Part shown: piece by piece, positions 4,451 through 33,819 of the stretch
Position numbering within the stretch: position 1 is the first letter of the stretch
How the letters are laid out: each line of letters starts with the position of its first letter
Source of the DNA: Clostridia bacterium
Lineage (GTDB): Bacteria; Bacillota; Clostridia; Oscillospirales; CAG-272
Length of the DNA stretch: 34,294 nt
Assembly: GCA_017517035.1 (NCBI GenBank)
Contig: JAFXAN010000083.1
Coordinates: forward strand, 91,853-126,146
Direction: 5' to 3'
Notes under the pieces: generated by a model
Database searches by the model: none
What the model was told of the DNA's origin: nothing
Seen by the model: only the letters and a program-made list of their open reading frames with translations
Program-made: the position numbers and the translations under genes

Positions 4451-4478
4451 AAAACAGGGCTGTCATCGGACAGCCCTG
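4451..4478 (-). terminator. Rho-independent terminator abutting the pdp ribosome site
   Basis: On the minus strand CAGGGCTGTC and GACAGCCCTG form a perfect 10-bp GC-rich stem with a CGAT loop, followed directly by TTTTT. The next bases are GGAG, the Shine-Dalgarno of pdp. It ends the 554-residue gene upstream and may attenuate pdp. Confidence 0.85.
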
Positions 4479-4488
4479 AAATCTAAAA

Positions 4489-6153
4489 TCAAAATGGATT
4501 AAATTCGTTGTCGCCAACGCCCGAAGAAACTTCAAAAATTTCAAGCTCAATGTTGCTCATTGTAATTGTTACACCGGGAGCTTCATTGACAATTATTGCA
4601 AAATAGAATCCTTCGTATTCACCGTCAGCAGAAGAAATATCAAAATATGATGTAGTATTATAGCTCTTATTATAAGCTCTGATATCAGAAGAAGCTATAA
4701 TGTCGGTTTTTCCGGAGGAATCATATCCAAGCATTGCTAAAGTAACCTTAGCGCCTGATGCTTTTCCCGTCATTGAGGAAACTGACATAAGTTTGAGACA
4801 CTTTGCATTAAAGAGTGTTGTTTCTTCAATTTTCGCAAAAATACCGTTAGAAGCGGTGTCGGCACTGTCATAGAAAGAAACTGTATTACCGCTTTCCGAA
4901 AGAACGCTTTCTTTTGCCGATTTAAATCCCGAGATCGTTGCGTTTGAAACATTTTCCGTTTCGAGGAGAATAGTTCCGCTCTCACGGTCATAGAGTGCAT
5001 TTTCGTAAACTCCGTTACCTGCGAAGGATTCAACGGGGACAAACAAATCTCCCTTATAAGAAATCGCATCGTCCTTACTATACACACCTTCATAAAGATT
5101 TAATGAAAGATATGCGTTTCCGTTTGAATAATAAGACTTGTAATAAACAATATTATTATCTACGATGGTTTTTACAGGATAAGCATTTGTTACATTCTCA
5201 CTATAACCTGTATTTATGACAGTGTTTATGCCATTTTTCAGCATAACTTCAACATCAAATGCCTCAAGAGCATTCTTATAGCCAACAAGAATATAAAGTG
5301 TTTTGCCGACGGCTCCGTCAAAAACGACCTTGAGAATCTGTGCTTGATCTACAACGATGGAAACAACACCGTTTTCATAAGAAGCCGAAGATGTTCCCTT
5401 ATTTGAATAAACAGAATATCCGTTTTCTATATCGGCGTTGATCGAAACATTAACAGTGATCGGTTTTCCGTAAAAGCTTACGGCAGCAAAATAAGGATCA
5501 AACTTAAGTGAAAGATCTTCAAGATCGACACCGTCTTGTCTGAAAACTCCCGAAATGTAAGATCCACCACCCTGAGCAACACTTACAGAAAACTTACTGC
5601 TCTCGGATGCCCTCAAATCATCGTTATCGGCAAAAAACTGAACAATATCTTCCGAAACGAGAGGTGAATAAAACTTAAAAAGTCCTACGATATTTCCACT
5701 CTCATTTATTGACGGAAAATTCGCACTATAAGCAGAAGCTTCCGCAACATTCAAGGCTGCATCTATCATTGTTCTGTTGGTCAGATAATATGAACTGTCG
5801 GGACAATTCTTAATCAGTCCAACCTCGGCAGCTTTATCAAATGGGAAGGCAGAGAGAAAATCGCCTCGATCTGCAGAAAAGCCTTTGAGTTCAAGCAATG
5901 CCGTGAGATACTCCGAAGTGACAGCATTTTCACCTGACAATTCAATCTTCTTTCCTGTTAAATCAAAAATAATATTCTCTGCAACCTCACTTGAAACGGT
6001 CTCGTTTTCGGCACCGAGAAGTTCAGCCGATATTCCGGCACCGATCAACTGTTCCTTGAGATCGGAATAATCAGAAGCAAAAACACAAAGTGTAAGCATT
6101 AATGAAAGCATTAATGCAATAATCAGGGCTTTAATTAACTTATTCACAAACAT
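4489..6153 (-). CDS. Secreted protein of unknown function with C-terminal GDNEFNPF tail
   Basis: I do not recognise this 554-residue protein as a whole. It has a clear signal peptide (VNKLIK, long hydrophobic core, likely cleavage after CVFA near residue 26). Residues about 30-150 (AAEVGLIKN...YLTNRTMIDAALNVAEAS) loosely resemble degenerate S-layer-homology repeats. A stretch near residue 370 (SYKGDLFVPVESFAG) recalls copper-amine-oxidase-N-like modules, and the remainder looks like beta-sandwich. It ends GVGDNEFNPF, the same tail as the lipoprotein 14 bases upstream. Start: ATG at 6153 has AGGCGG only three bases away; a GTG at 6147 has better spacing, so the start is uncertain by two codons. 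It is co-transcribed with the lipoprotein and followed by a terminator. It is probably a wall-associated or binding protein. Confidence 0.75.
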   Translation of the reverse strand: MFVNKLIKALIIALMLSLMLTLCVFASDYSDLKEQLIGAGISAELLGAENETVSSEVAENIIFDLTGKKIELSGENAVTSEYLTALLELKGFSADRGDFLSAFPFDKAAEVGLIKNCPDSSYYLTNRTMIDAALNVAEASAYSANFPSINESGNIVGLFKFYSPLVSEDIVQFFADNDDLRASESSKFSVSVAQGGGSYISGVFRQDGVDLEDLSLKFDPYFAAVSFYGKPITVNVSINADIENGYSVYSNKGTSSASYENGVVSIVVDQAQILKVVFDGAVGKTLYILVGYKNALEAFDVEVMLKNGINTVINTGYSENVTNAYPVKTIVDNNIVYYKSYYSNGNAYLSLNLYEGVYSKDDAISYKGDLFVPVESFAGNGVYENALYDRESGTILLETENVSNATISGFKSAKESVLSESGNTVSFYDSADTASNGIFAKIEETTLFNAKCLKLMSVSSMTGKASGAKVTLAMLGYDSSGKTDIIASSDIRAYNKSYNTTSYFDISSADGEYEGFYFAIIVNEAPGVTITMSNIELEIFEVSSGVGDNEFNPF

Positions 6154-6167
6154 TTACCGCCTAAAAA

Positions 6168-6746
6168 TTATTCAAAAGGATTAAACTCATTATCCCCGAT
6201 TATGTAGTCACCGCATTTTCCGGAAAACTCAAAATCGGAAACAAGTGTATATGTATTGCCATCCAAATTATAGCTTGCAAAAAGCGCATCATCGAGAACT
6301 GCGCTTACCGCCTGAAAAGCAGATGCGCCTGCAGCATATGAAATATAGAGGTTCTTCTCTACGAATTTGATTACAAATTCGTCCGCTTTATGTTCAAGAT
6401 CGGGAATGATATTTTCTCCGATAACGATCATTGCCTCAAGATTGTCTGTGCTGTTAACGATCGACATTTCAGCTCCGGTAATAACCTTTACCTGACCTGC
6501 GATATAATCAGCAATATTCTTTCCGACCGTGTCACCGTCGTTTACAACGATACTGCATTTAAGTGCATCGTGTTTTCCAAAGAAAACAGAAACTGCCGCT
6601 TCTGTGGTCAAAGCTTCGGTGTCGGTGGAATCATCACTTATGACCGAGCCTGTATCAGTGCTATCTGAGGGAGTTTCACCGCAAGCAACAAAAGAAAAAG
6701 TTAAAAGCGCTACCATAACGAACAATAACAAATTACGAATTTTCAT
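6168..6746 (-). CDS. Small lipoprotein, GH67-N-like domain, C-terminal GDNEFNPFE tail
   Basis: This 192-residue protein has a lipoprotein signal (MKIRN, hydrophobic stretch, FVAC with Cys22) and a Ser/Thr/Asp-rich linker. The mature domain (about 45-175) contains IADYIAGQVKVITGAEMSIV, then IVIGENI, then ADEFVIKFVEKNLYISYAAG and QAVSAVLDD. That order resembles the N-terminal alpha/beta domain that precedes catalytic domains in GH67-type and DUF4838-type glycosidases, but no catalytic domain follows, so it would be a free-standing accessory domain. The protein ends IIGDNEFNPFE. The start at 6746 has GGAGG five bases upstream; an in-frame TTG four codons earlier overlaps that site and was rejected. 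It has its own promoter, reading divergently from the HD-domain gene, and leads the cluster with the 554-residue gene. It is membrane-anchored outside the cell. Confidence 0.75.
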   Translation of the reverse strand: MKIRNLLLFVMVALLTFSFVACGETPSDSTDTGSVISDDSTDTEALTTEAAVSVFFGKHDALKCSIVVNDGDTVGKNIADYIAGQVKVITGAEMSIVNSTDNLEAMIVIGENIIPDLEHKADEFVIKFVEKNLYISYAAGASAFQAVSAVLDDALFASYNLDGNTYTLVSDFEFSGKCGDYIIGDNEFNPFE

Positions 6747-6765: not shown

Positions 6766-6793
6766 ATTATATTATATTATAACATATTGTCAA
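6766..6793 (-). promoter_or_regulatory. Putative promoter of the lipoprotein gene
   Basis: On the minus strand TTGACA (6793-6788) and TATAAT (6771-6766) have a 16-base spacer. The -10 is about 20 bases before the lipoprotein start codon. Confidence 0.65.
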
Positions 6794-28272: not shown

Positions 28273-31200
28273 TCAGCCCCAAACAGAATCGGGAGTTATT
28301 TCAACATCTCCAAATTCGGGTTCCTTTGATTTTTTGAAGTTCATAACGTCGGTATAGCTCAGGCAGGTAAGCGTATCAATGCTTCCCTCTGCTGCAAGAT
28401 TTAGGCAAACCTGATAAAGATTTACTGATCGGTAATTCTTGTCCGCATAATCGCTATAAACCACATATTCATTGCCGTTTTCATCCGAAAGAACCGCATA
28501 TCCTCTGATAGTTACATTCCTATCATAGTTATTTTCGGTAAATCTTGTAACGGTACAGTAATAAACGATCTCGTTTTCACTTGTCGCCTTATATTTTCCA
28601 ACAAAGGTGTCATTCTTGAATATTTCGATCTTTGATGCGAAATCAAGTGTTTTATATTCACCCGAGCTTCCTGAGAGAACAAGCTCTGTGCCGTTTGCTG
28701 CAAGCTTTCTTGTGGATGCAAGAAGCGTTCCGTATTCGATGACCTTATATCCCATCTCTTCAAGAGCGGAAATGCCGCCTATATCAACCTTGAATCTTGA
28801 ACGGAGACCGTTATATCCCTCTGTTCTCACCTGATATCCGTCGAAGATGAGGAATGAATCCGCACTCATCGGAACTTCGGAAACGCTGACAGCGCAGGAA
28901 AGCTTGTATTTTCCGTTCATAAATGAAGCTGTGACTGTTGCTTCACCCTTTGAAAGTGCTGTTACAACGCCGTCCTTGACCGTGACGATATCATCATCGG
29001 AGCTTGTCCAGATAACAGTCTTATCACCCCTGTAAAGCTCACATATAACTGCTTCTATTGTGAAGGAATTGCCGACGATGAGCTGCTTTTCTGTCAGATT
29101 TATTCTGAATACATATTTCAGCTTATCAGCAAGCGTACTTTCACTCAGAAGCGTCTCGACCTCAGAGCCTTCAAAAATATAGATTGCCTTGAGTGCATCG
29201 CAAGAGTCAAATGCAGCACCTATTGCGTTCATCTTTTTGGGAAGAATAACATTTTGGAGTTCGGTAAGTTCGCTGAATGCAGCATCCGAAAGCTCTGTTA
29301 TTCCGTCCTCGACAATAAGCGAAGTAACATTCGATGCATATTTCGAAGCATCGCCGATACCGCCTACCGAGCCGCTGCCTAAAACAGTCATTATTCCATC
29401 CTCAATTTTAATATAAGCTGTGGATGAAGCCTTTCCAAAGGGTACAAATTCAATGCCATTATCCTCGCAATAGATATCAAGATAATCACTTGCGCCGTAT
29501 ATTTTCTCAATATTTGAGGGAATATTAGATGCCACAAGAGGATATGTTTCGCTATAGACCTTATTCAGTATTAAAGCCTTGATGTTCGGCACATTTCTGA
29601 AAATATTGCTTCCGCCCGAAAGACAGCTTCCGCCTCTGCCGTTTCCTGCAATATTTGAAAGATCTGCAACACCCTCCATATAAGGAGCGCCCGCAACCTG
29701 AATTGTATGAAGCGATGTGCATCCGTCAAAGGCTTGTGAATCTATCTGTCCAACAAGAGAGGGCATTGTTATCTTTTTGAGATTCGGCATATTCTTGAAT
29801 GCAGCTCCGCTTATTTTCTTTGCGTTGCCGAGAATTACTACCTCTGTGACCTTGTTTCTGACATTTGCCCAGCCGCCCGAGGAATCTGCCGAGCCGCTTT
29901 CGTTCCAGCTATATTTATCGGAGGCTGTAATTGTGAGAACTCCTGTCCACTCGTCAAATACCCATGAAACATTGACATATGTTGATGCAATTTCACCCTC
30001 AACGGTATGAACGATAGTACCGAGAGAGATGAAGCTATATCCACTTTCATTTGCAAGTGTCTCGCCGTATGTTCCGGAATATGCGGTGACTGTGCAGGCA
30101 TTTGGAATACCGTCAAAGGCATTTTCGGCAATTTCATATCTTTCCGCATAGATGGTTATATCGGTAAGTGCTTCACAACCGCTGAAGGCTTCTTCTCCGA
30201 TATTTGTGACAAATTTTGATATAAATGCCTTTTTGAGCGCAGAATTTTTGAAAAGTTCTGCGGGAATTTCTGTTATTACGGATGAAAGTGTATAGCTTTC
30301 GATAGAAGTGCCCATAAAGCAAGCCTCACCAATCGACTTGAGTGTTGCAAGGTTTGCATGGCCTTCTGTGGGAGCGGTATCTGTAATGTATATGCATGAA
30401 AGCTTTTCACAGCCTGCAAAAACCCCGGTGCCAAAGTTCTCAACATAAGCATTCAGCTCTACGGATTTAAGGTTTTTCATATCTGCAAAAGCATATGCTC
30501 CGATATTTTTACCGTTTCTTATAATAACCTTTGTGATCTTGTCGGCATAAGAAGCGTAAGGTGCTGCATTATCGATCGTTACATCTGTTCCGTCGCCCAA
30601 AAGGATAAGTGAATATTCTTCGCCGTTTTTAACGACCTCAAAGCTTATTCCGTCCCCCATAGAGCCGCTCAAAACCATTTCACCAACAAGGTTCTTATAA
30701 TCTGTTTCGATTCCCGTTTCAATATTACGGAATTTCATCAGATTTGTCTTTGCAAAGTCCTGCGCCACAGAGCCTTCATATGCAACGATAGTCACATTTC
30801 CGATATAGTTGGTTGTGGGGGAAGTTGTTTTGTTTGCAAAGGCATAGGTTGCAATAGAGGTATCCTTGCCGAGAACCGTAAGAGTATTCAACTTTGAACA
30901 TCCCGAGAAAGCAAGATTATTTATCGCCGTTACACCCTCGGGAATGGTCATTTCGGTTATTCTGTTGCTTGCCTTGAAGGTCTCAGCCTTGATAGTACCC
31001 TTAAGGTCGTCCGAAAGAATGTATTTTGTGAATTTTGAAGTTCCATCAAAGATATATCCTGCCGCAAAATCGGTAATGGAGGAGATATCCGCAGTGCCTA
31101 TGACGGGTTCTTCGCCCTTATAATATATTGTGGTAAGTGATGAGTTTGTTTCAAAAGCACCCTGCTTTATTGTTCTTACATTTCTTGTAAGCTCAATGGT

Positions 31201-33819
31201 GGTAAGTGCCTTCATATTGTGGAAGGCAACGGCACCGAGGGTCGTGATGTTTTCACCAACAACCGCCTTTGTTATAACGCTGTGGTATTCAGCCCATGCG
31301 GAATCTGTTTTTCCATAGCCCGAAACACCCGAAACGAGAGTATCGCCTGTACCGAAGATATAGAGCACACCGTCCTCATATCTCCAGTATACATTTTCAC
31401 CGCATTCGCCTGCAACACCGAGATTTTCGAAAATAATGCCATTGCTTTGCGCAAAGGTATTTCCGATAGTGCCGCTGTAGGCGCAGAGAGTGAAATCGGT
31501 CTTGCCGCAAAAGGCATTTGCGTCAATGGTCTTAAGTGAATAAGGAAGAACAACCTTTATTCCCGAAGGAACATCAAATGCTTCGGGGCCTATAGCTGTT
31601 ACGCCCTCACTTATAACGATCTCATTTACAGATGACATTGCGCTGTTCCAAGCATATTCACCGTTAGAAATTGCGCCGCTGCAGGTGATGCTGAGCTTGC
31701 CATCAAGGATTATCCATTCAGTGCCCGCATCGCTTCCGTATGCTGCTACATTTTCCGCGTCATATACCTTTATTTCCTTTGAGACACCTGCACCAGATAT
31801 CTTGAGGATTCCGTATTCCTCACCGTTTTCCGCGGGAGTTTTGTATTCGGTTGAAACCGCTGAGTCTTTGAATTCATAATAGGGAGTAACGATTGGGTAT
31901 GCAGAAAGCTCTGTGGTATCGGGGGTCACAATGAAGCTCTCGCATTCCTTTCCGTCAAGTCCTATGACTTTGAAGGAGCAGATAGCGCTCGGCTGATTAT
32001 CATAGACAGATGCAGAAAGATTTATTGCCAGCTCCTCTGCTCTTATGCTCTTCTCGCCAAGAGAAAGAAGGTGCAGATCGGAATCGGGAGAAGATGCCAT
32101 TGTGATAAAAGCTCTGTGAGCAGTTGTAAGAGAAGAAATTTCTCCGAGAATGGCAACACCGTAGCTTTCAAGACCTGCGATTTTGCTCTCAATTGCCGCC
32201 ATTTCCTCGGAAACGGTGGCTTTTTCGCCTTCAAGATCGCTCGATTCAATGATTTTTATAGCATTTTTGCCATTCACTGTACCTGAAGCCAAAAGAGCAT
32301 CAAGGCTATCATAGAAGATAACTCTTCTCGCCGTAAGCTTCTCCCATGCTGTGGCGAAGCTGCTCTTATATGCCGCATCAACATTTCCGTCAAAGAAGAA
32401 TCCGTCGCCTCCCAGCTGAGGGATGTCGCTTGCAGCCTTTGTGTGTGTGAAATCAATGGGGTATGTATTTGTCTGACCGTGTGTTTGTCCCTGTCTGAAT
32501 CTTATTGAAGCGTCTGTTTTAAGGTTATTGTATATTGCCTGAACACCGTAAACGGGACAGGTTGGGTCGCCCATTCCTGCGGTAATAACAACATTGCCCT
32601 TTATGCGCTTTGCCATAAAGGATGAGTCGAAATAGCGCAGACCCTCCGCATATGTGGGACGGTAATTTGTATGTATCCTTGTTGAGACCGTGTTGCTTCC
32701 AACATCCGCCATCCAGGGAACGCCTGCCTCACAGCGGGTTACTTCGGGAACAAGTGCCGCAACCGAAAGTGCCTGGAAACCGCCCTGGCTTCCGCCTTGA
32801 ACGCTTATATCGGTTCCGTTCCAGAGTCCCTTCCATCCGCTTATATCAAGTCCGCCAGAGGAGGCTTCGCCACCCTCTGTGCCAAAATATTTCTGAAGGA
32901 ATCTGACCGCCTGAACATCACGAAGTATCATCCATCTGAAATAGCTGGTATAGGGAGAAGCATTTTCATTGTCCTTCCAGCCGTAGTTTTTAAGTCCGAG
33001 ATCAGAATCATAATACGCGCCCGGCTGAAGCTGCTCGATACTGTGCGAATTTACCGCAAAAGTAACATAATTATCCTTATATGTACGTGTTGCGGTATAA
33101 ACACCGTAGCCAAGGAAGGTAAGATGGAATCCGAGAGTTCCCTGCTCCGCATTTTTCGGAACGGTAAGTACACCTGCGGTCCATGTGGCACCCGTTGCCA
33201 CAAGCGAAGGGTCACCTATGCAGTTCACCTTGACAATATATGTGTCAAACTTTGAATTTGTGGATTCAACCTGCTCAAGATAGAAGAGATCGGGAGCGCA
33301 ACCGTCAAGAAGTCCAAGCTGCTCTGCCCAGAATGCGTCAAAATCAAGAGGCTCGGCAAATGTTGTCTCGATATCAAGTGCGCCTGCAATTGCACCGCCC
33401 TCAAATTTTGTTATCTTGCTGTCGCTCATAACCGTCTTTGCAAAATCCGCTATCTCAACCACGATGCGAACCGCACCCGGTCTTGTAAGCTTCGTTTTGA
33501 GAACGACCGTACCCGATGTTGCATCGGCATAACCGTCCGAGAATGAGCCGTCGTCACCCTCAATGGAGTATTTGAAAAAAGGTGCCGCGATCTGCTCGCC
33601 GTCAGCATAGAGAGTGAAGGTGAAGATCATCTCCTCACCCACCTCATATCTTGTAAAATCCTTATTTGTCTCGCATTTGAAATATACCTTATCGACCTCT
33701 GCAAGATCAATGTCTATAATGCTTCTAAGATCTGCCGCAAAAAGAGACACAGCCATAACAGAAGCAAGAGTAATCACCGCAAGAAAAAGAAGTGCGGCTT
33801 TTAGTATTTTATTTTTCAT
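28273..33819 (-). CDS. Giant secreted CE7-like esterase with BspA-type LRRs, Ig-like domain and acidic tail
   Basis: This 1848-residue protein has a signal peptide cleaved near residue 28 (SLFA). Residues about 155-460 are an acetyl-xylan-esterase (AXE1/CE7) alpha/beta-hydrolase: FDAFWAEQL, the nucleophile elbow GGSQGG (Ser344), GMGDPTCPV (Asp418) and QTHGQT (His447). Residues about 700-1560 are irregular BspA-type LRR_5 repeats (for example ISEGVTAIGPEAF, TIPEGVTAINNLAFSGCSKL). About 1573-1650 is a bacterial Ig-like (Big_2) domain (VIWTSSDDDIVTVKDGVVTALSKGEATVTAS). A beta-rich module (about 1655-1825) and the tail FGDVEITPDSVWG follow. It probably deacetylates plant or host polysaccharide outside the cell while the LRRs bind surfaces. 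No dockerin or sortase motif is visible. GGAG lies five bases before the ATG. Confidence 0.88.
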   Translation of the reverse strand: MKNKILKAALLFLAVITLASVMAVSLFAADLRSIIDIDLAEVDKVYFKCETNKDFTRYEVGEEMIFTFTLYADGEQIAAPFFKYSIEGDDGSFSDGYADATSGTVVLKTKLTRPGAVRIVVEIADFAKTVMSDSKITKFEGGAIAGALDIETTFAEPLDFDAFWAEQLGLLDGCAPDLFYLEQVESTNSKFDTYIVKVNCIGDPSLVATGATWTAGVLTVPKNAEQGTLGFHLTFLGYGVYTATRTYKDNYVTFAVNSHSIEQLQPGAYYDSDLGLKNYGWKDNENASPYTSYFRWMILRDVQAVRFLQKYFGTEGGEASSGGLDISGWKGLWNGTDISVQGGSQGGFQALSVAALVPEVTRCEAGVPWMADVGSNTVSTRIHTNYRPTYAEGLRYFDSSFMAKRIKGNVVITAGMGDPTCPVYGVQAIYNNLKTDASIRFRQGQTHGQTNTYPIDFTHTKAASDIPQLGGDGFFFDGNVDAAYKSSFATAWEKLTARRVIFYDSLDALLASGTVNGKNAIKIIESSDLEGEKATVSEEMAAIESKIAGLESYGVAILGEISSLTTAHRAFITMASSPDSDLHLLSLGEKSIRAEELAINLSASVYDNQPSAICSFKVIGLDGKECESFIVTPDTTELSAYPIVTPYYEFKDSAVSTEYKTPAENGEEYGILKISGAGVSKEIKVYDAENVAAYGSDAGTEWIILDGKLSITCSGAISNGEYAWNSAMSSVNEIVISEGVTAIGPEAFDVPSGIKVVLPYSLKTIDANAFCGKTDFTLCAYSGTIGNTFAQSNGIIFENLGVAGECGENVYWRYEDGVLYIFGTGDTLVSGVSGYGKTDSAWAEYHSVITKAVVGENITTLGAVAFHNMKALTTIELTRNVRTIKQGAFETNSSLTTIYYKGEEPVIGTADISSITDFAAGYIFDGTSKFTKYILSDDLKGTIKAETFKASNRITEMTIPEGVTAINNLAFSGCSKLNTLTVLGKDTSIATYAFANKTTSPTTNYIGNVTIVAYEGSVAQDFAKTNLMKFRNIETGIETDYKNLVGEMVLSGSMGDGISFEVVKNGEEYSLILLGDGTDVTIDNAAPYASYADKITKVIIRNGKNIGAYAFADMKNLKSVELNAYVENFGTGVFAGCEKLSCIYITDTAPTEGHANLATLKSIGEACFMGTSIESYTLSSVITEIPAELFKNSALKKAFISKFVTNIGEEAFSGCEALTDITIYAERYEIAENAFDGIPNACTVTAYSGTYGETLANESGYSFISLGTIVHTVEGEIASTYVNVSWVFDEWTGVLTITASDKYSWNESGSADSSGGWANVRNKVTEVVILGNAKKISGAAFKNMPNLKKITMPSLVGQIDSQAFDGCTSLHTIQVAGAPYMEGVADLSNIAGNGRGGSCLSGGSNIFRNVPNIKALILNKVYSETYPLVASNIPSNIEKIYGASDYLDIYCEDNGIEFVPFGKASSTAYIKIEDGIMTVLGSGSVGGIGDASKYASNVTSLIVEDGITELSDAAFSELTELQNVILPKKMNAIGAAFDSCDALKAIYIFEGSEVETLLSESTLADKLKYVFRINLTEKQLIVGNSFTIEAVICELYRGDKTVIWTSSDDDIVTVKDGVVTALSKGEATVTASFMNGKYKLSCAVSVSEVPMSADSFLIFDGYQVRTEGYNGLRSRFKVDIGGISALEEMGYKVIEYGTLLASTRKLAANGTELVLSGSSGEYKTLDFASKIEIFKNDTFVGKYKATSENEIVYYCTVTRFTENNYDRNVTIRGYAVLSDENGNEYVVYSDYADKNYRSVNLYQVCLNLAAEGSIDTLTCLSYTDVMNFKKSKEPEFGDVEITPDSVWG

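Follow-up and report, generated by a model that had tools for sequence, protein, structure and literature searches.

The stretch of DNA analysed here (34,294 nucleotides of the genome of a gut Clostridia bacterium, referred to below as the window) carries on its reverse strand two adjacent genes for predicted exported proteins, which we call LIPO and P1. LIPO (6168..6746, −) is a predicted lipoprotein of 192 aa consisting of a signal peptide, a linker, one domain and a tail, and P1 (4489..6153, −) is a predicted secreted protein of 554 aa with a signal peptide; both assignments are based on the translations and on orthologues in a second species. LIPO most likely starts at the ATG at 6746 and not, as in the mechanical ORF, at a TTG. 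The two genes are separated by 14 bases, a sigma-70-like promoter (TTGACA-16-TATAAT, 12 of 12 consensus matches; 6766..6793, −) lies just upstream of LIPO and a predicted intrinsic terminator (4455..4478, −, within a 101-nt region with a fold z-score of −3.1) separates P1 from a thymidine phosphorylase-like gene. Judged from this anatomy, LIPO and P1 are predicted to form an operon of two genes that has a promoter and a terminator of its own and includes neither a transpeptidase nor a receptor gene. In the window LIPO and P1 sit between an HD-domain gene and the thymidine phosphorylase-like gene, which are divergent, whereas in another member of the genus (G003, L095 2518-4519) these two neighbours adjoin in one direction with no such pair. 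The site has thus apparently been rearranged or has received an insertion and, as G003 lacks the pair between the same neighbours, LIPO–P1 appears to be an accessory module of the genus.

Domain structure of LIPO and P1

LIPO has a lipobox (...SFVAC) at residues 18–22 and a low-complexity linker after the signal peptide (signal peptides were assigned with a simple scripted rule). Residues ~54–178 (6213..6587, −) correspond to a predicted non-catalytic GH67N/GH20b-like domain. A direct Pfam scan of LIPO gave no match, but profile–profile comparison with 47 related domain sequences did (hhalign E 5.6e-10, prob 96.6); every tail-bearing ORF had been removed from this comparison, and reversed and shuffled controls gave P of at least 0.13. 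Foldseek, run on a weak model (mean pLDDT 58), matched LIPO to domain 2 of GH20, GH115 and GH67 enzymes. Matches by profile and by fold that span the whole domain therefore place LIPO with the GH67N/GH20b-like accessory domains. No catalytic barrel follows, LIPO stopping right after the domain, and the tail lies beyond the predicted domain in a stretch of very low confidence (pLDDT ~27–34), as would be expected of a flexible linear motif. GH67N-like domains are also found in a large family of lipoproteins of ~650–730 aa, several per genome (C23, C126, C121 and C8 in G000, the genome of the window), which occurs in many genomes of the family.

No Pfam or NCBIfam family was matched by P1. Residues ~50–133 (5755..6006, −) may form one degenerate S-layer-homology-like repeat, as suggested by weak profile matches to SLH-type proteins of other families (E 2e-5 to 7e-4), two of the four that were checked carrying Pfam SLH or a near-threshold match to it; P1 itself does not match Pfam SLH, and SLH proteins typically have three signature-bearing repeats. 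Residues 187–294 (5272..5595, −) form a predicted beta-sandwich that was recovered by hmmsearch within a four-sequence set (E 1e-9 to 1e-11), by hhalign (E 1.4e-7) and in a whole-genome scan (E 3.5e-7). A beta-sandwich of this type precedes a beta-helix in proteins of four other genomes (G001, G247, G116 and G661), among them lipoproteins and enzymes. The beta-sandwich and beta-helix folds, like the CuAO-like and carbohydrate-binding-like parts that come later in the chain, were recognised by eye in the sequence, a family search having given no match. The AlphaFold model of P1 (mean pLDDT 38) was too poor for placing the tail, and its Foldseek matches were disregarded for the same low value.

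A C-terminal octapeptide common to LIPO and P1

The initial annotation had pointed out that the two proteins end alike, and both reading frames and both ends are as it described. P1 terminates in ...SSGVGDNEFNPF*, with GDNEFNPF as its last eight residues and the stop codon directly after (4492..4515, −), and LIPO in ...DYIIGDNEFNPFE*, where the same octapeptide is followed by Glu and the stop codon (6174..6197, −). The bodies had looked unrelated, and indeed BLASTP aligns just the 9-residue end; the five synonymous differences reported between the tail codons of P1 and LIPO were also found. In a comparison of the last 15 residues across a 309-gene sample of the genome, at least seven common residues occurred in only 3 of 47,586 gene-end pairs, namely P1/LIPO, one pair of tandem paralogues and one dockerin pair, which leaves P1/LIPO as the sole sampled pair sharing that many residues without an explanation by homology. 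On this sampling chance is excluded as the cause of the match; a composition-based estimate puts such a match in adjacent genes at ~1.6e-5 per genome. The papers searched contain no mention of the GDNEFNPF peptide, and broader searching also gave nothing bearing on it.

The pair is known from one further species, the congener G002 (Clostridia bacterium RGIG4237, a MAG from roe deer colon, contig JAFTXK010000025.1), in which LIPO and P1 lie in the same order beside the same HD-domain gene. The orthologous bodies are 40–41% (P1) and 53–54% (LIPO) identical, and all eight tail residues are identical in the four proteins. Six sites vary among the four DNA tails and all six are third codon positions. 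The tails of P1 and LIPO differ at five positions within one genome, whereas orthologous tails differ at four (P1) and two (LIPO); the two tails of one genome are therefore no more alike than are orthologous tails of the two species, which indicates that both predate the split of the two species and have undergone no recent homogenisation. Recent gene conversion between the two ends was rejected on these grounds, the tails grouping by gene and not by genome. An RNA or DNA element was rejected in turn because the variable sites are all at third positions, and the LIPO end also has no unusual RNA structure (fold z +1.1). The earlier argument for selection on the peptide, as opposed to a recent DNA copy, is thus borne out by tails that have stayed identical, through third-position changes only, while the bodies diverged, and at the level of codon comparison we conclude that GDNEFNPF is under selection in both proteins. 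What follows the octapeptide is not conserved: in G002 the P1 tail consists of the same eight residues plus one Ala, so that across the two P1 and two LIPO proteins the next residue is none, Ala, Glu and Glu, and the final residues are F, A, E and E. The register of the tail relative to the carboxylate consequently shifts by one between the P1 orthologues, and this variation in the final residue makes recognition of a free carboxylate unlikely.

Distribution of the peptide and possible roles

The octapeptide had been proposed as a sorting, processing or docking signal of exported proteins, and motif patterns were searched for in the whole of the genome from which the window comes (3.07 Mb, 97% complete), exported proteins being surveyed in a sample of ~0.4 Mb. 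(A dispersed repeat was noticed in this genome, G000, the 20-mer GGAGACGGTGAAATTATACC, with 21 near-identical sites, for example L004-L013 and L015-L025, one copy being slightly different; it often lies at contig ends and probably breaks the assembly.) The pattern GDxEFxP matched the ends of P1 and LIPO and one internal site, and no other exported protein of the genome carries the motif, a result named beforehand as counting against a general role. When as many as three mismatched bases were tolerated in the octapeptide codons, only internal or out-of-frame matches were added, and none of the 73 exported-like proteins in the sample has the tail besides P1 and LIPO. Such near variants are absent from the ends of exported proteins both here and in four congeners, and neither the tail nor near variants end any other protein in this genome, the four congeners and ~295 family members; DNEF[ND]PF is missing from the other 293 of the 295 family genomes searched. 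Among 84,980 species genomes GDNEF[ND]PF was found in six contigs, and as a protein end only in that of G002. A viral collection contained no P1 relatives and one exact motif match, internal to an unrelated protein.

One look-alike end, GDVEITPDSVWG, was seen on a protein of 1848 aa elsewhere in the window (28273-33819, −). Paralogues ending in the same domain have no such tail, and a wider consensus GDxE[FI]xP that would include this end was for that reason rejected as coincidence. The C-terminal part of this protein (28273-28872, −) is a domain of ~165–180 aa without a Pfam name. This genome (G000) has 46 matches to it (e.g. L185-L224), most of them within exported proteins of 700–2600 aa, and G002 has 23, against none in 54 genomes outside the genus. 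It is C-terminal in some proteins and internal in others, and its distribution suggests a genus-specific expansion.

A sorting or processing signal general to exported proteins is contradicted by these searches: as an end, the peptide recurs neither in the genome, nor in the family, nor in ~85,000 species genomes, and since it ends no protein outside the pair the general reading fails its main test. What survives of the proposed role is docking private to the pair, a possibility that is the reading preferred here. It is in keeping with the presence of LIPO-type and P1-type modules in one polypeptide elsewhere: G001, of the same genus, and G247 each have a single lipoprotein (L235 and L236, 981–988 aa) in which two GH67N-like domains are followed by a P1-type beta-sandwich and a beta-helix. 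This fusion suggests that the two kinds of module act together, genes that are joined in one genome and separate in another being a standard hint of joint action and no proof of it.

We tentatively favour, as the best single account of a match that may have others, a glycan-binding surface pair in split form, with subunits that dock by means of a C-terminal peptide private to them. LIPO and P1 would be two non-catalytic surface subunits from one operon, LIPO presumably lipid-anchored and carrying the GH67N/GH20b-like domain, and P1 presumably exported, probably wall-associated, and carrying carbohydrate-enzyme accessory domains. Together they would form a functional unit, probably binding a glycan, that is split here and whose domain kinds relatives hold in one polypeptide. 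Both subunits carry the putative short linear motif (hydrophobic)-G-D-N-E-F-N-P-F, and the tails would most likely fill equivalent binding sites, which each protein might offer to the other or a common partner to both, and would thereby keep P1 at the membrane-anchored LIPO. The proposal draws on the exclusivity of the peptide to the pair, the anatomy of co-transcription, the conservation of the octapeptide without that of the carboxylate, and the existence of fused relatives. Against it, neither a binding partner nor a pocket was identified, the pair is known from two species only, and the fused relatives have no GDNEFNPF end and only one domain in common with P1; the tail could be conserved for some other reason.

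The strongest of the other explanations, which we consider unlikely, is an ancient capture of a 3′ end, in which the tail was copied between the genes in an ancestor and has been kept for a local fold or for protection from proteolysis, with no joint function. The LIPO end matches, without gaps, the junction that follows the first GH67N-like domain in longer relatives (SDFEFSGKCGDYIIGDNEF with SDFEHKVDNSVKIGDKTY), which gives the LIPO tail a possible origin in a domain; however, 28–43% of all C-terminal tails score as well on a position-specific score of the junction motif, the DNA directly 3′ of the two stop codons is dissimilar, and a need for an identical octapeptide in two unrelated folds would be unexpected. 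A related idea, that the tail represents the first strand of a second GH67N-like domain since lost, was tempting by eye and in the hhalign register, and was rejected as the position-specific score was no better than for random ends.

That P1 and LIPO are the only clients of a dedicated C-terminal signal for sorting, processing or attachment, served by a receptor or enzyme of its own, seems to us rather improbable. Such a signal would account for an identical end under selection on two exported proteins with different bodies, but a third client is absent from the genome and its relatives, the ends have no transmembrane stretch or basic cluster and match nothing in NCBIfam, and no receptor gene was found. 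Equally doubtful is the more specific form of this idea, in which the octapeptide would be the recognition tag of an undescribed two-client device for surface attachment or assembly in Clostridia, a receptor or enzyme encoded outside the operon reading (hydrophobic)-GDNEFNPF and fixing a secreted glycan-binding protein next to a lipoprotein.

Readings at the level of translation or of a protease tail are improbable even when taken together. A nascent-chain pause or arrest signal beside the stop codon, coupling export to expression of the pair, might draw on the proline and acidic residues just 5′ of the stop and on a distance to the stop kept at 8–9 residues, but it is very unlikely, as the peptide is on both genes, including the last before the terminator with nothing downstream to regulate, and the LIPO end has the ordinary RNA folding described above; we know of no similarity between GDNEFNPF and known arrest peptides. 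Reading of the tail by a PDZ domain or tail-specific protease, with exported proteins turned over as a result, fits the aromatic P1 end (−NPF) in this genome and is otherwise scarcely credible, given that the distance from aromatic residue to carboxylate is unconserved (final F, A, E, E) and that no other exported protein has the tail.

If the tails of LIPO and P1 do dock, the pair would be a compact split surface glycan-binding unit joined by a copied eight-residue peptide. Such a unit would be easily tested in vitro and might find use as a small orthogonal tag pair. In any case, two exported proteins may end identically without the end being a general sorting signal.

Comparison with known systems

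The tail resembles the LPxTG, PEP-CTERM, GlyGly-CTERM and T9SS signals in being a short conserved stretch that ends exported proteins with unrelated bodies. Those signals recur on many proteins per genome and comprise either a hydrophobic stretch accompanied by basic residues or an entire C-terminal domain. GDNEFNPF, in contrast, has two clients, no hydrophobic or basic segment and no family match; the last 25 residues of P1 and LIPO contain neither a hydrophobic segment nor a basic cluster, and no NCBIfam CTERM model was matched. Type I dockerins (PF00404) are likewise short C-terminal docking modules on exported proteins, but a dockerin is a calcium-binding repeat of ~57 residues, whereas the tail has eight residues and lacks this signature, and Pfam finds no dockerin in P1 or LIPO. 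Two other proteins of the window, both exported, do match PF00404 (1-2112, + and 2195-3100, +), the first of them also matching PF21277 (VgrG3-like C-terminal domain) in the N-terminal region.

The body of LIPO is related by profile and fold to the GH67 N-terminal domain (PF03648) and GH20 domain 2 (PF02838), as found in DUF4838 (PF16126), and differs from proteins of these families in having no catalytic barrel and in not reaching the Pfam models. The fused lipoproteins from within the genus and the family (L235 and L236), although they differ from the pair in possessing a beta-helix region and in ending without GDNEFNPF, resemble it in combining a lipobox, a GH67N-like domain and a P1-type beta-sandwich, there in one chain.
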